A program made the position numbers and the translations under genes. Source: Calothrix sp. NIES-4101 (GTDB lineage Bacteria; Cyanobacteriota; Cyanobacteriia; Cyanobacteriales; Nostocaceae). Taken from it: 64,000 nt of DNA. Below, in pieces: positions 5,041-51,303 of this stretch. Within the stretch, counting starts at the first letter, position 1. Each line of letters opens with the position of its first letter. Below the pieces are notes generated by a model, which was not told where the DNA came from, did no database searches, and saw nothing but the letters and a program-made list of their open reading frames with translations. Location of the stretch: positions 2,542,001 through 2,606,000 of the forward strand of contig AP018280.1 in the NCBI GenBank assembly GCA_004296455.1, in the 5' to 3' direction.

Positions 5041-6264
5041 ATGCAAACCCTGCCCACCCCTACTACTAGCACTGCATCCAGCCAACCCACTTTTGACACA
5101 ACAATCAAAAGACGCAAAACCCGTCCTGTGAAAGTGGGTGATATCACCATCGGAGGTGGATATCCGGTGGTAGTGCAGTCGATGATTAATGAAGATACCC
5201 TCGACATTGATGGTTCAGTTGCTGCCATCCGTCGTTTACACGAAGTAGGTTGCGAAATCGTTCGTGTCACCGTCCCCAGCATGGCACATGCCAAAGCCTT
5301 GGCAGAAATCAAACAGAAATTAAAACAAACCTACAAAGACGTACCTATTGTTGCTGACGTGCACCATAACGGCATGAAGATTGCCCTGGAAGTTGCCAAG
5401 CACATTGAAAAAGTACGGATTAATCCCGGTTTGTATGTATTTGAAAAGCCTAACGCCAACCGCACCGAATACACTCAAGCCGAATTTGATGAAATTGGCG
5501 AAAAAATAGCAGAAACTCTTAAACCGTTAGTTATTTCCTTGCGTGATCAAGGAAAAGCAATGCGTATCGGCGTAAATCACGGCTCTCTAGCAGAAAGAAT
5601 GCTGTTTACCTATGGTGATACCCCCGAAGGGATGGTGGAATCAGCTTTAGAATTTATTCGGATTTGCGAATCCCTGGATTTCCACAATATTGTCATTTCG
5701 ATGAAGGCATCGCGAGTCCCAGTCATGGTGGCAGCATATCGCTTGATGGCAAAACGGATGGATGATTTGGGGATGGATTATCCATTACACTTAGGCGTGA
5801 CTGAAGCTGGTGATGGTGAATACGGGCGGATTAAGTCTACTGCTGGAATTGCGGCATTACTTACGGATGGAATTGGCGATACGATTCGGGTATCGCTAAC
5901 AGAAGCACCAGAAAAAGAAATTCCCGTTTGCTATAGTATTTTGCAGGCTTTGGGACTGCGGAAAACAATGGTTGAGTATGTCGCTTGTCCATCTTGCGGA
6001 CGTACTTTGTTTAACCTCGAGGAAGTATTACATAAAGTCCGAGAAGCGACTAAACACTTGACAGGATTGGATATTGCTGTTATGGGCTGCATCGTCAATG
6101 GGCCAGGTGAAATGGCTGACGCAGACTATGGCTATGTTGGTAAAACACCCGGTTATATCTCCCTGTATCGCGGTCGGGAAGAAATTAAGAAGGTTCCCGA
6201 AGATAAAGGTGTTGAAGAGCTAATTAATTTGATTAAAGCTGACGATCGCTGGATCGAGCCATAA
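5041..6264 (+). CDS. ispG: 4-hydroxy-3-methylbut-2-enyl diphosphate synthase (IspG/GcpE)
   Basis: A 407-residue enzyme of the MEP isoprenoid pathway, converting methylerythritol cyclodiphosphate to HMBPP with a [4Fe-4S] cluster. The TIM-barrel part carries [16 protein letters not shown] (38-53) and ADVHHN. The cluster-binding C-terminal domain shows C316 and C319 in CPSCGRT, C350 in [10 protein letters not shown], and the glutamate E357 that supplies the fourth ligand. The compact two-domain length fits the bacterial/cyanobacterial form, which takes electrons from ferredoxin. Carotenoid, phytol and quinone side chains depend on this step. The start is the ATG opening [10 protein letters not shown]; the first 20 residues are low-complexity and poorly conserved. 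Confidence 0.97.
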
Positions 6265-12462: not shown

Positions 12463-12526
12463 TATAGAGGAGGTAGATGCACCCTGATTCAACTGTTACC
12501 TCAGTTTAAAAGACTGAGGTTTTTTA
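12463..12526 (+). ncRNA. putative small RNA, motif GATGCACCCTGAT plus terminator (copy 1)
   Basis: A TATAGA box (12463-12468) precedes GATGCACCCTGAT (12476-12488). A hairpin follows, ACCTCAGT (12498-12505) with ACTGAGGT (12513-12520), and a T-run. The 16-nt GTAGATGCACCCTGAT is identical to that in the unit at 49528, although the terminators differ in sequence. It could instead be merely the 3' end of the preceding mRNA. The shared motif placed between a -10-like box and a terminator in three places argues for a short RNA family. Confidence 0.45.
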
Positions 12527-12529
12527 TTT

Positions 12530-26467: not shown

Positions 26468-27103
26468 ATTGTCTTATCTGATAGGGATTAGTTTGAATTG
26501 CAATCTAAAACCTAACGATATTATTGCAATCGATATCGGTTTCAATCCCTGATAGGGATTAGTTTGAATTGCAATGTTTCTGTTCAAGTAAAGCTACTCT
26601 ACTCGCATTTGTTTCAATCCCTGATAGGGATTAGTTTGAATTGCAATTTTAAAAACCACGGTTAAGCGTAACCCTGGTGGTGCTGCCGTTTCAATCCCTG
26701 ATAGGGATTAGTTTGAATTGCAATTGAAAATGGCGTTGTTAATATTGGGAGATAAACATGTTTCAATCCCTGATAGGGATTAGTTTGAATTGCAATTGTT
26801 AATTGTCAATGACGAATCATTAAAAGAATTAGAGATAAACATGTTTCAATCCCTGATAGGGATTAGTTTGAATTGCAATGCGATCGTATTTCCGATTGCG
26901 CGTTTGGAATTATTGATGTTTCAATCCCTGATAGGGATTAGTTTGAATTGCAATTTTTCTTACACTGCGGATTTTAATAAAGCCAAAGAGTTTGAGTTTC
27001 AATCCCTGATAGGGATTAGTTTGAATTGCAATTTTAGTTCTTCTCCCGCTACTGGAAGAGTCACTAGTTTCAATCCCTGATAGGGATTAGTTTGAATTGC
27101 AAT
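26468..27103 (-). CRISPR. CRISPR array, 9 repeats and 8 spacers, no cas genes in window
   Basis: Eight identical 37-bp repeats start at 26539, 26611, 26688, 26760, 26843, 26918, 26996 and 27067; each begins GTTTCAATCC and ends TTGAATTGCAAT. A ninth at 26468-26504 keeps its last 27 bases but has a degenerate first ten. The repeat holds the internal palindrome ATCCCTGATAGGGAT. Spacers are 34-41 nt, except one of 46 nt (26797-26842). Read on the minus strand, repeats end in ATTGAAAC, the usual cyanobacterial crRNA 5' tag. The degenerate repeat then sits at the trailer end, and the leader lies above 27103. The spacer-length argument (see findings) also supports minus-strand transcription. Confidence 0.95.
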
Positions 27104-47805: not shown

Positions 47806-49281
47806 ATGTCTACTACTACGACTGTAAAGACTGAGTACGAGGCGATTATTGGCTTAGAAACCCACTGTCAACTCAGTACCAACACGAAAATTTTCTCCGA
47901 TAGCTCCACAGCATTCGGTGCTGACCCTAATACTAACATTGACCCTGTTTGTATGGGTATGCCTGGAGTATTACCCGTTCTCAACCAAAAGGTTTTGGAA
48001 TATGCGGTAAAAACTGGGTTAGCTTTGAATTGTGAAATTGCTAAATATAGTAAATTCGATCGCAAGCAATATTTTTATCCTGACTTACCCAAAAACTACC
48101 AAATTTCCCAATACGATTTACCAATCGCGGAACATGGCTGGTTAGAAATTGAGTTGATTGATAAGGATGGGAATCCGACTCGCAAAAGAATTGGTATTAC
48201 TCGGCTGCATATGGAGGAAGATGCAGGCAAATTAGTCCATGCAGGCAGTGACAGACTCTCCGGTTCCGCATACTCTCTAGTAGACTACAACCGCGCCGGT
48301 GTTCCTTTGGTGGAAATCGTCTCCGAGCCAGATTTACGTTCCGGGCAAGAAGCTGCGGAATACGCCCAAGAATTACGGCGGATTGTCCGTTACTTGGGTG
48401 TGAGCGATGGTAACATGCAAGAAGGTTCGCTACGGTGTGACGTAAATATTTCTGTGCGTCCTGTCGGGCAAGAAAAATTTGGCACCAAAGTCGAAATCAA
48501 AAATATGAACTCCTTCAGCGCTATTCAAAGAGCGATTGAATACGAGATTGAACGTCAAATTGCAGCTGTGGAAGCAGGTGAAGAAATTATTCAAGAAACT
48601 CGACTCTGGGAGGAAGGTTCGCAACGTACTATTAGTATGCGGAAAAAGGAAGGTTCCAGCGATTATCGTTACTTCCCGGAACCAGATTTGGGGCCAATTG
48701 AAGTTTCTAGTGAACAGCTTACCACTTGGAAAGGCGATATCCCCGAACTTCCCGCCAGTAAACGCCATCGCTATGAAGAGGAATTGGGGCTTTCAGCTTA
48801 TGATGCGCGTGTGTTAACGGAGGAATTCGCAACTTCTGCCTATTTTGAAGCTGCGATCGCATCGGGTGCAAATGCTAAAATTGCTGCTAACTGGATTACT
48901 CAAGATATTGCTGCTTACCTAAATAAGCAAAAACTGAATATTTCCGAAATCGGTTTAACTCCCCAAAATCTCGCAGATGTAATTACTCGCCTCGAAAGTG
49001 GCAAAATTAGTAATGCGATCGCTAAAGAAAAGTTACCCGATTTGCTTAATGGTGTTACTCCTGAAAAAGCCTTCGCTGGTAAGGAACTTATTTCTGATCC
49101 TGCGATTCTTGAACCCATAGTTGATGAAGTTATCGCCGCCAACCAAAAAGAATACGAAAAATACAAAGCCGGAAACACTAACCTCAAGGGCTTTTTTGTG
49201 GGGCAAGTCCTGAAAAAGACAAACAAACTTGCTGAACCTCGTCTCACTAACGAGTTGGTGGAGAAAAAGCTCAACGCTTAA
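47806..49281 (+). CDS. gatB: Asp-tRNA(Asn)/Glu-tRNA(Gln) amidotransferase subunit B
   Basis: A 491-residue GatB. The N-terminal cradle has EAIIGLETHCQLSTNTKIF and VCMGMPGVLPVLN (C-containing zinc-type loop), then DYNRAGVPLVEIVSEPD and the GxxRCDVN motif EGSLRCDVNISVRP. The C-terminal YqeY-like tail domain ends LKGFFVGQVLKKTNKLAEPRLTNELVEKKL and contacts the tRNA. GatB activates Glu-tRNA(Gln) for amidation with ammonia from GatA, as cyanobacteria lack GlnRS. gatA and gatC are not in the window, as is usual in cyanobacteria. Full length; no defects. Confidence 0.97.
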   Translation: MSTTTTVKTEYEAIIGLETHCQLSTNTKIFSDSSTAFGADPNTNIDPVCMGMPGVLPVLNQKVLEYAVKTGLALNCEIAKYSKFDRKQYFYPDLPKNYQISQYDLPIAEHGWLEIELIDKDGNPTRKRIGITRLHMEEDAGKLVHAGSDRLSGSAYSLVDYNRAGVPLVEIVSEPDLRSGQEAAEYAQELRRIVRYLGVSDGNMQEGSLRCDVNISVRPVGQEKFGTKVEIKNMNSFSAIQRAIEYEIERQIAAVEAGEEIIQETRLWEEGSQRTISMRKKEGSSDYRYFPEPDLGPIEVSSEQLTTWKGDIPELPASKRHRYEEELGLSAYDARVLTEEFATSAYFEAAIASGANAKIAANWITQDIAAYLNKQKLNISEIGLTPQNLADVITRLESGKISNAIAKEKLPDLLNGVTPEKAFAGKELISDPAILEPIVDEVIAANQKEYEKYKAGNTNLKGFFVGQVLKKTNKLAEPRLTNELVEKKLNA

Positions 49282-49514
49282 TCTCAAAACACGGAATTAT
49301 TCTGACTTAAACCGAATTAAAATACCAGGTTTCTACTCAAATACTGCCTTGCACAATAGCAGGATGAATTAGCCTCACCCAGAGGCGCTGAGATTTCAGA
49401 TATTGAATCAGCAGCACCTAAATACCGAGACTGTGTAAAGCCTTAAAGATATCTTTACAAAATCTTTACCAGAAAATTTGCAATAATGGGTAGCGCCCCT
49501 CATCCCTATAGTGA

Positions 49515-49577
49515 TAGTATGTGTTAAGTAGATGCACCCTGATGATCCGGAGAGCTACGCAAGTGGCTCTCTTTTTT
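49515..49577 (+). ncRNA. putative small RNA, GATGCACCCTGATGAT plus GNRA-loop terminator (copy 2)
   Basis: A TAGTAT -10-like box (49515-49520) lies 10 bp before GATGCACCCTGATGAT (49531-49546). A 9-bp stem follows, GAGAGCTAC (49550-49558) with GTGGCTCTC (49563-49571), a GCAA tetraloop, and six T. Transcription from the box would give an RNA of only about 50 nt. It shares 16-bp sequence and full architecture with the unit 282 bp downstream. No -35 box is clear. Confidence 0.6.
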
Positions 49578-49796
49578 GTATTTTGTATATTTGGTAATTA
49601 ATATCAAGTTCGACTAATCAGTGATTATTAATTTGTCTTTGCGTCTGTATTGATCACAATTCTGGAGGTAAGCAGCCCAAAAGCCTCAAAAACTGATCAA
49701 ATTACAGTTTGTAGAAACTGATTATCATACACAAGCAATTATAAAAAGCTGTGGTCGAGAAAATAAGGGGTAACACACTACGTCCCCAAAAAAGTA

Positions 49797-49858
49797 TAGT
49801 ATGTTATTTGGATGCACCCTGATGATCTGGAGAGCTACCCAAGTGGCTCTCTGTTTTT
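49797..49858 (+). ncRNA. putative small RNA, GATGCACCCTGATGAT plus terminator (copy 3)
   Basis: Tandem relative of the preceding unit: TAGTAT (49797-49802), GATGCACCCTGATGAT (49811-49826), the same 9-bp stem GAGAGCTAC (49830-49838) with GTGGCTCTC (49843-49851), loop CCAA, then a T-run. The stem is conserved exactly while the loop changes, suggesting the stem is functional. It ends about 130 bp before argJ. Confidence 0.6.
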
Positions 49859-49989
49859 TAGTTTCGGTTTCCGGAATGTTGCAGAAATTAGAATCAAAGA
49901 CACAAAACAAAAGACATTTAACAAAATACCACTAAGTGGTGACACGAACTTGATATAATCGCCAGTCGAGTCACAAATGGGAAAGAGTC

Positions 49990-51303
49990 ATGGCAGACTG
50001 GTGGGAAATTACAGGCGGAGTTACAGCACCCAGAGGTTACAAAGCAGCAGGAATCAAAGCTGGATTAAAACCTTCGGGATTACCAGACTTAGCTTTAATA
50101 GTTTCAGATGTAGATGCGATCGCCGCAGGAGTGTTTACAACAAGTTACGTAAAAGCCGCTTGTGTAGATTATTGTAAAGAAAGATTGCAGGCAAAACATA
50201 GTTCCCGTGCTATTCTCTGCAATGCTGGACAAGCGAATGCCGCGACAGGGGAACAGGGAATGCAGGATGCCCTAGAAAGTGCAGAATTACTCGCCAAAAC
50301 ATTAAATATTTCGCCAGACTTAATCCTCCTGGCATCAACGGGAGTAATTGGACAGCGCATCAAAATGGAGGCAATGCGAAGCGGAATCCCTCAACTCGTA
50401 GCAGCCCTTTCAGAAACTGGTGGAGATGCGGCGGCAGGGGCAATTATCACCACAGATTTAGTCACAAAAAGTATTGCTCTAGAAACTAATATAGGCGATC
50501 GTCCGGTGCGAATTGGTGGAATTGCTAAAGGTTCGGGGATGATTCATCCGAATATGGCGACAATGCTAGCTTTTGTCACCTGTGATGCTGCTGTATCACC
50601 TCATCTATGGCAGCAGATGGTTTCCCGTGCGGCTGATAGAAGTTTTAATTCGATTACCGTTGATGGCGATACGAGTACGAATGATAGTTTAATTGCTCTG
50701 GCAAATGGAGAATCTCGAACTCCAGCAATTACAGACATCGGTACAGAAGCGGAAAAGCTCGAAGCAATGTTGACAGCAGTTTGCCAGCATTTAGCGAAAT
50801 GTATTGCCCGTGATGGAGAAGGGGCAACTTGTTTAATCGAAGTCCAAGTTACGGGTGCAACTGATGAACACGCAGCTCGTCAGGTAGCAAAAACTATTGT
50901 TGGTTCATCTTTAGTTAAATCTGCAATCTTTGGAAATGACCCCAACTGGGGAAGAATTGCGGCGGCGGCTGGACGTGCAGGTGTTGCATTTGAACAAGAG
51001 GATTTACGGATACAGCTAGGTGATTTTTTATTGATGGAGAATGGGCAACCTCTACAATTTAACCGTGCGGAAGCCAGTGCCTATTTAAAGAAAATTTCCG
51101 CAAATTCATCTCTGCCAGCCAATGTAAATGCTACCAATATGAGCAATGATTTGGATATTGATAGAAGTGTAGTCGCACCACAGCGAGTTGATAATCCTGT
51201 CGTCATTCAAGTTAATTTAGGAAACGGACATGGTTCGGGAATAGCTTGGGGATGCGACTTGAGTTATGATTACGTCAAAATTAACGCTGAATATACAACG
51301 TAG
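49990..51303 (+). CDS. argJ: bifunctional ornithine acetyltransferase/N-acetylglutamate synthase
   Basis: A 437-residue ArgJ that recycles the acetyl group from N-acetylornithine to glutamate in arginine synthesis. The self-cleavage site is T191 in HPNMATMLAFVTCDA, giving alpha and beta chains; STGVIGQRIKM and FGNDPNWGRI are present. The C-terminus ends WGCDLSYDYVKINAEYTT as in all ArgJ. About 20-25 extra residues (roughly 368-402, Asn/Asp/Val-rich) are inserted before the final sheet compared with the usual short linker. It opens with MADWWEIT after GAAAGAG. Two putative small RNAs precede it. Confidence 0.95.
   Translation: MADWWEITGGVTAPRGYKAAGIKAGLKPSGLPDLALIVSDVDAIAAGVFTTSYVKAACVDYCKERLQAKHSSRAILCNAGQANAATGEQGMQDALESAELLAKTLNISPDLILLASTGVIGQRIKMEAMRSGIPQLVAALSETGGDAAAGAIITTDLVTKSIALETNIGDRPVRIGGIAKGSGMIHPNMATMLAFVTCDAAVSPHLWQQMVSRAADRSFNSITVDGDTSTNDSLIALANGESRTPAITDIGTEAEKLEAMLTAVCQHLAKCIARDGEGATCLIEVQVTGATDEHAARQVAKTIVGSSLVKSAIFGNDPNWGRIAAAAGRAGVAFEQEDLRIQLGDFLLMENGQPLQFNRAEASAYLKKISANSSLPANVNATNMSNDLDIDRSVVAPQRVDNPVVIQVNLGNGHGSGIAWGCDLSYDYVKINAEYTT

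Follow-up and report, generated by a model that had tools for sequence, protein, structure and literature searches.

Yfr1 and Yfr2 are short RNAs that are conserved across many cyanobacteria and expose a conserved motif in unpaired form, and the RNA predicted here is alike in these respects. A closer relative is NsiR1, described in the accessible part of the literature as heterocyst-specific and as present in 12 tandem copies upstream of hetF. According to the available text of PMC9045159, NsiR1 represses alr3234 via a binding region that includes the start codon, and is antisense on hetF. The sequence TCCGGA is known as the DIF1 motif and is reported at position -35 (PMC6133370, available part), and expression of a 57-nt NsiR1-like RNA is reported for the non-heterocystous Limnospira indica (PMC8400943, available part). 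A second point of comparison is the regulator HetR, which, in the accessible part of PMC4192349, requires GGGnnnnnCCC and has the hetP site GAGGGGTCTAACCCCTC; an A two bases upstream of the GGG is conserved at HetR sites in the same source.

Among the sRNAs of Nostoc sp. PCC 7120, NsiR8 and NsiR9 depend on HetR, as is proposed here for the units described below, but at 171 nt and 122 nt, respectively, they differ from these ~50-nt units, the comparison being one of descriptions and not of sequences (PMC4734099, available part). The same source gives sRNA 4547237r as 51 nt, similar to the length of the units, and this RNA could be a member of their family. As far as the available text goes, that survey considered a start only when it lay 200 nt or more ahead of a same-strand gene (PMC4734099), a rule that may have excluded units lying near argJ. 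The literature searched, which mostly excluded subscription papers, yielded no account of an argJ-linked sRNA, and the HetR ChIP-seq study mentions neither argJ nor gatB in its main text, where most genes appear by number.

Two tandem units between gatB and argJ

The window, meaning the whole 64,000-nt stretch of DNA analysed here, contains two units on the forward strand, downstream of gatB (47806..49281; NCBIfam NF004012, 679.9 bits, and TIGR00133, 590.2 bits) and upstream of argJ (49990..51303; NCBIfam TIGR00120, 526.1 bits), both also on the forward strand. The NCBIfam matches thus confirm the placement upstream of argJ made in the initial annotation, and identify gatB as the neighbour on the other side. 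Both units include the exact 16-mer GATGCACCCTGATGAT that had been reported for them, at 49531-49546 in unit 1 and 49811-49826 in unit 2, at a spacing of 280 bp and not 282 bp. When up to three mismatches were allowed, the 16-mer was found at three sites in the window as compared with 0.31 expected, a number reached by 0 of 100 shuffles; the additional site belongs to the NsiR1 gene (12476). The repeat is longer than first described, spanning 103 nt with 76% identity (49482-49584 and 49762-49864), and its relatives extend well beyond the taxonomic family of the window and do not always adjoin argJ or gatB.

In unit 1, a predicted HetR-type GGG-N5-CCC site, GGGTAGCGCCC, occupies the -35 position (49488..49498), 43 bases before the 16-mer, and is followed by an extended -10 box TG-A-TAGTAT (49512..49520; family consensus TGnTATACTnTG), the conserved 5' element formed by the 16-mer, and an intrinsic terminator (49549..49577) with a stem at 49549-49572, a GCAA loop, and a T run at 49572-49577. 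Unit 2 has a degenerate site, GGGTAACACAC, at the aligned position (49768..49778), one base off GGG-N5-CCC, and a terminator (49828..49859) with a stem at 49828-49853, a CCAA loop, and a T run at 49854-49859. The -10-like TAGTAT noted earlier is the aligned box in unit 1 (49515-49520); in unit 2 this string also occurs (49797-49802), yet it is TATAGT at 49795..49800 that corresponds to the family box in the alignment. No two-hexamer sigma-70 promoter was found at the units by a simple scan. The two loops are as previously given, whereas the stems comprise 10 and 11 pairs in the terminator scan instead of 9 bp, with folding energies of -16.6 kcal/mol (z -2.55) in unit 1 and -16.8 kcal/mol (z -2.22) in unit 2. 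From these elements we infer that each unit is transcribed into a short RNA, of ~50 nt in unit 1 (49528..49577) and ~52 nt in unit 2 (49808..49859). The predicted start, at the G of GUAGAUG, was placed by the position of the -10 box and the DIF1 spacing of NsiR1.

Unit 2 is also bracketed by a 36-nt inverted repeat with 72% complementarity (49601-49636 and 49921-49956). Elsewhere in the window, a CRISPR array with eight CRISPR-DR5 repeats lies at 26539-27103 on the minus strand.

Of 118 genomes sampled in the window's family, 107 contain the exact 16-mer; they represent 54 of 56 genera, which rules out a purely local repeat. The 16-mer also occurs in 13/13 genomes of one genus. In each of the other 11 family genomes it is matched with one or two mismatches, and these matches include true variant units (GATGAACCCTGATGAT, genus g28) as well as NsiR1 copies and chance hits. 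Two-mismatch searches with the control sequence gave 0-2 hits per genome and strand, and weak matches were hence left out of the unit counts. Copy number per family genome ranges from 0 to 7, with two or more copies in 57/118. In the order, 159 of 388 genomes have the exact 16-mer (by row count, 65/71 inside the family and 94/317 outside), and in the class it was found in 85 of 388 genomes of at least 95% completeness, including 37/290 outside the order by row count. Thirty-one of these 37 belong to a single family, f47, and one (G627) has the match inside a coding region; as this match lies on the same strand inside a 1369-aa ORF, it was taken as chance and not as a unit. The reversed 16-mer gave no match in the family, order or class listings. 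The window's family includes heterocyst formers; the other families are, from taxonomy, expected to form none. Since the units were found via the exact 16-mer, its invariance among them follows from the way they were chosen.

With many genomes keeping the motif, the stem and the -10 box, a very short regulatory RNA family, as proposed in the initial annotation, is the best-supported reading, and that the units form a conserved sRNA family is, judged by sequence, close to certain.

Promoter architecture and HetR

For the counts over 226 family, 81 other and 12 f18 units, and for the 319 distinct units considered further below, a unit had to have at least 75 bases of upstream and 60 of downstream sequence, and identical segments were counted once. 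An alignment of 147 units on the 16-mer revealed, in order, A-rich DNA, GGGGT-N4-CCCCTCA, TG-N-TATACT-N-TG, and TTAAGTA. The extended -10 element TG.TA is present in 221 of 227 units of the window's family. At the -35 position of most units is a palindrome, AGGGGTNNNNCCCCTC, that fits the GGG-N5-CCC of HetR and is a predicted HetR site. GGG-N5-CCC occurs in 130/227 family units, with 124 of 131 sites at a single position, -43 from the 16-mer, and was absent from the stretch -100 to -60 of the 227 units and from one shuffle per promoter. The strict form was found in 129/226 family units, 69/81 other units and 0/12 units of the clade f18. The strict site fails in 97/226 family units, unit 2 of the window among them, and a relaxed site fails in 43/226; the site of unit 1 is intact. 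In the window itself, six GGG-N5-CCC sites as compared with 6.12 expected are not significant alone, and the support for the site is comparative. A 13-base palindrome pattern matched 150 times in the promoter windows of the units, which total 15,570 bases, versus 20 times in the other 1.36 Mb of the loci, where several of the 20 matches adjoin variant units.

The palindrome is common to the units and the HetR-bound promoters of hetP and hetZ. The units differ from these in that their palindrome precedes a predicted ~50-nt RNA instead of a protein gene, and in that it also occurs in genomes far outside the window's family. The A conserved two bases upstream of GGG at published HetR sites is found at 105 of 131 family sites. 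Control of the units by HetR is likely.

Binding of the palindrome of a real sRNA family by a regulator other than HetR is the alternative that survives best, and is rather unlikely. The assignment to HetR is made from sequence, and the spacing is not a sharp test, since the runs of G and C let GGG-N6-CCC (138/227) and GGG-N7-CCC (110/227) fit the family units as well as N5. The fit to GGG-N5-CCC and the upstream A argue for HetR, as does the distribution of the hetR gene. HetR was searched as PF03574 in 183 different genomes (80 + 24 + 80, with G245 included twice), which were hand-picked after the 16-mer result, so that the proportions are not those of a random sample. It is present in the window's own genome. 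In the clade f18, HetR was absent from 19/19 genomes, five of which are under 90% complete. Twelve of the 19 have the 16-mer, all in units by gatB and/or argJ, and these units keep the -10 box and the RNA while none (0/12) has the palindrome. The palindrome thus goes with the presence of hetR, although the genomes examined are related and f18 represents one clade and one evolutionary event. Outside f18, the 16-mer was found in only 2 of 46 HetR-less genomes examined, once as the match inside the 1369-aa ORF and once in an NsiR1-like unit. The latter genome (G245, family f32, 4% contamination) has two exact 16-mers, with one NsiR1-like unit that lacks TCCGGA, and these are either foreign DNA or a real exception.

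On the other side, HetR-bearing groups without the RNA occur. In two hand-picked sets, 31/52 and 29/56 HetR-bearing genomes have the 16-mer, and it is missing from f44 (9/9 genomes examined), f9, f21 and most of f2. As all nine f44 genomes have HetR and none has the 16-mer, HetR does not imply the RNA.

Relation to NsiR1 and genomic place

No Rfam family reached its gathering score at the argJ locus. Neither Yfr1 nor Yfr2 was matched there up to E 10, in line with the initial annotation. In a permissive Rfam search, NsiR1 (RF02399) matched units 1 and 2 with 29.0 and 18.8 bits, below the cutoff of 39, and three relatives of the units scored 28.3-28.6 bits with the same model. The match is clearest at the 5' end, where NsiR1 and the units share GUAGAUGCACCCUGAU over 16 nt in unit 1 and 13 nt in unit 2. 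The earlier view that NsiR families do not fit is therefore incorrect for the 5' end, which is that of NsiR1, and holds for the promoter and the terminator, which differ.

Both kinds of unit are short, end in a terminator hairpin, occur as tandem copies with their own promoters, and have a motif centred near -35. They are distinguished by place (argJ/gatB as against upstream of hetF), by the -35 motif (HetR-type palindrome as against DIF1 TCCGGA), and by the stem, which in the units is of the GGAGAGCU..AGCUCUCC type. Moreover, the 16-mer of the units ends in GAUGAU, while the NsiR1 copies of the same genome mostly have GAUAAU, GAUAAC or GAUUCA.

Eleven NsiR1 matches over the cutoff were found in the window's genome, eight of them in one array (C1:5918556-5920078). 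Within the window, a solo NsiR1 gene (12471..12528, forward strand; RF02399, 49 bits) lies far from this array and shares the 5' element with the units; it has TCCCGA in the place of DIF1. Further dispersed copies at C1:5365561 and C1:6056173 have different terminators.

To describe the RNA of the units, an alignment, A1, was made of 29 units, consisting of 27 hand-picked from 39 representatives and the two window units. The list of representatives excluded units with TCCGG/CCGGA or N, and the 12 representatives left out mostly have other terminator types, a choice that favours the statistics of the helix and of the model, R1, built on A1. The terminator helix, which includes the stem of unit 1, has 87.0% paired cells in A1 as compared with 49-63% when slid, and its covariation score was reached by 0/500 shuffles; of the nine stem pairs, only three vary at both positions, a number not above that in shuffled alignments. 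The R1 scores of the window units, 73.3 and 65.4 bits, come from sequences inside A1. Units at gatB/argJ with the exact 16-mer, most of them outside A1, scored 54-79.5 bits (for example L265, 79.5, and L083, 78.1), DIF1-type RNAs with the 16-mer 33-38 bits, and NsiR1 copies of the window's genome at most 30 bits. Diverged array copies scored 29-61 bits, and those at 29-44 bits overlap NsiR1.

This overlap, together with the tandem arrangement common to both, a 5' end identical in kind and the sub-cutoff Rfam matches at both units, would be expected if the units were NsiR1 copies moved elsewhere. We regard such an origin as quite unlikely, given that both units fall under the Rfam cutoff and that R1 separates exact-16-mer gatB/argJ units from the genome's own NsiR1 copies. 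TCCGGA occurs in 0/227 family units versus 7 of the 11 own-genome NsiR1-type copies, ~40 nt before the core, with TCCGG in two more; GGG-N5-CCC is also found in one of the 11. The gatB/argJ place, in addition, recurs outside the family and the order. The best reading of the sequence data is that the family of the units is sister to NsiR1, probably controlled by HetR and trans-acting.

DIF1-like TCCGG or CCGGA was found in 11 of the 81 units outside the family, most of which are NsiR1-like RNAs with the full 16-mer. DIF1-like promoters with complete 16-mer RNAs are seen at L236-L240, L277, L278, L280 and L284, in families f5, f10, f54 and f47. As these RNAs occur outside the window's family, NsiR1-like genes are more widespread than heterocyst formers.

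Among 319 distinct units, 153 lie between an upstream gatB and a downstream argJ, 69 have argJ only, 43 gatB only and 54 neither, so that 265/319 are linked to one or both genes; no other order or strand was seen in the loci fetched. In 25 of 30 one-per-genome family loci, argJ is downstream on the same strand. Where a genome has gatB and argJ apart, units can accompany each of the two genes, as with L095 and L096 of G005. The order gatB - units - argJ recurs outside the window's family (L235, L241, L249, L250, L252, L265, L275, L282, L286, L289 and others) and is hence very old.

Other arrangements were also observed. A second, unlinked class of units (L227, L228, L232, L242, L243 and L244; families f12 and f33) has the same 5' end and HetR-type palindrome with another terminator, of the CGACGCCCTCAAG..TTGGGCG type. 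In family f15, nearly identical exact units form arrays of 3-6 at intervals of 218-242 bp (L245, L247 and L268); these loci and L269 are not near argJ/gatB, and the next protein belongs to one cluster in all four.

The constant position of argJ, which whenever it occurs lies downstream in the same orientation (222/319 units) and often 130-500 nt away, and the terminator at the end of each unit are also what would be seen if the units were cis-acting attenuators or terminators in the argJ 5' region that regulate argJ only. Such a leader is very unlikely, as 43 units lie downstream of gatB at loci that lack argJ, 54 have neither gene, and each unit has its own predicted promoter. At 62 loci without argJ, some overlapping within one genome, the next ORFs (90 aa or longer) form 46 BLASTP clusters, and in 36 of the loci the ORF runs in the opposite direction. 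On the same data, a reading of the units as the 3' end of gatB was likewise rejected.

A tiny leaderless peptide (ATG CAC CCT GAT ...) starting in the 5' element, suggested by an ATG 4 nt after the predicted start, an MHPD frame in both families and several NsiR1 copies of the window genome's array that read MHPDN..P-stop, is extremely improbable, as variant units lose the ATG (GATACACC in L198, L202 and L245; GACG in L067 and L144) and loop indels shift the frame past the fifth codon. The units are taken as RNA genes, each with a predicted promoter of its own, an intrinsic terminator, a conserved unpaired segment and no conserved reading frame.

Proposed action of the RNA and its meaning

Taken together, the two units are probably tandem genes for a ~50-nt, terminated, trans-acting sRNA with a HetR palindrome at -35 and an NsiR1-like 5' end. 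Each gene would be expressed from its own extended -10 promoter, with HetR at the -35 palindrome setting transcription of the RNA. As the palindrome replaces the -35 hexamer, as DIF1 does, HetR is a little more likely to be an activator of the units than a repressor. An extended -10 box can work alone, however, which makes repression possible. The unpaired conserved 5' end, GUAGAUGCACCCUGAUGAU, would pair with mRNAs in trans, and the hairpin would serve as terminator and stability element. This action is modelled on the repression of alr3234 by NsiR1, and a trans-acting mechanism is a reasonable default.

Candidate targets were searched in the window's genome with a wobble-tolerant 13-base complement of the 5' element. 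The 21 places found include 12 that are units or NsiR1 copies; the other nine compare with six for the reversed control, and none of the complements in this genome is at a convincing start codon. A candidate site at L296, near the start of an 86-aa ORF opposite a 445-aa ORF, was judged spurious. At L198 (G101), where a pair lies on the minus strand (6069-6128 and 5726-5785), the first unit is without a recognisable palindrome and reads GATACACC, unlike the second with its exact 16-mer. The targeting sequences of tandem copies may thus be diverging.

The finding would place an RNA regulator beside argJ, the gene for an enzyme of arginine synthesis. Given that NsiR1 has the same 5' end, two differently controlled promoters, one with the HetR palindrome and the other with DIF1, would supply the same target-recognition sequence. 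That two sRNA families should share a targeting sequence under different developmental promoters would bear on the short target list of NsiR1. To our knowledge, the role of HetR in cyanobacteria without heterocysts is an open question, and a near-perfect HetR-type palindrome that is kept at a single syntenic position inside the order and outside it, and is missing from a clade that lacks HetR, is a concrete candidate for a HetR target. We suggest, tentatively and as something short of an even prospect, that the gatB-argJ sRNA is an ancestral output of HetR that is older than heterocysts and was kept without them, and that NsiR1 was derived from it, or from a common RNA, by acquiring a DIF1 promoter. 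If so, an older HetR-sRNA circuit with ties to nitrogen and arginine metabolism would have been taken over by heterocyst development.
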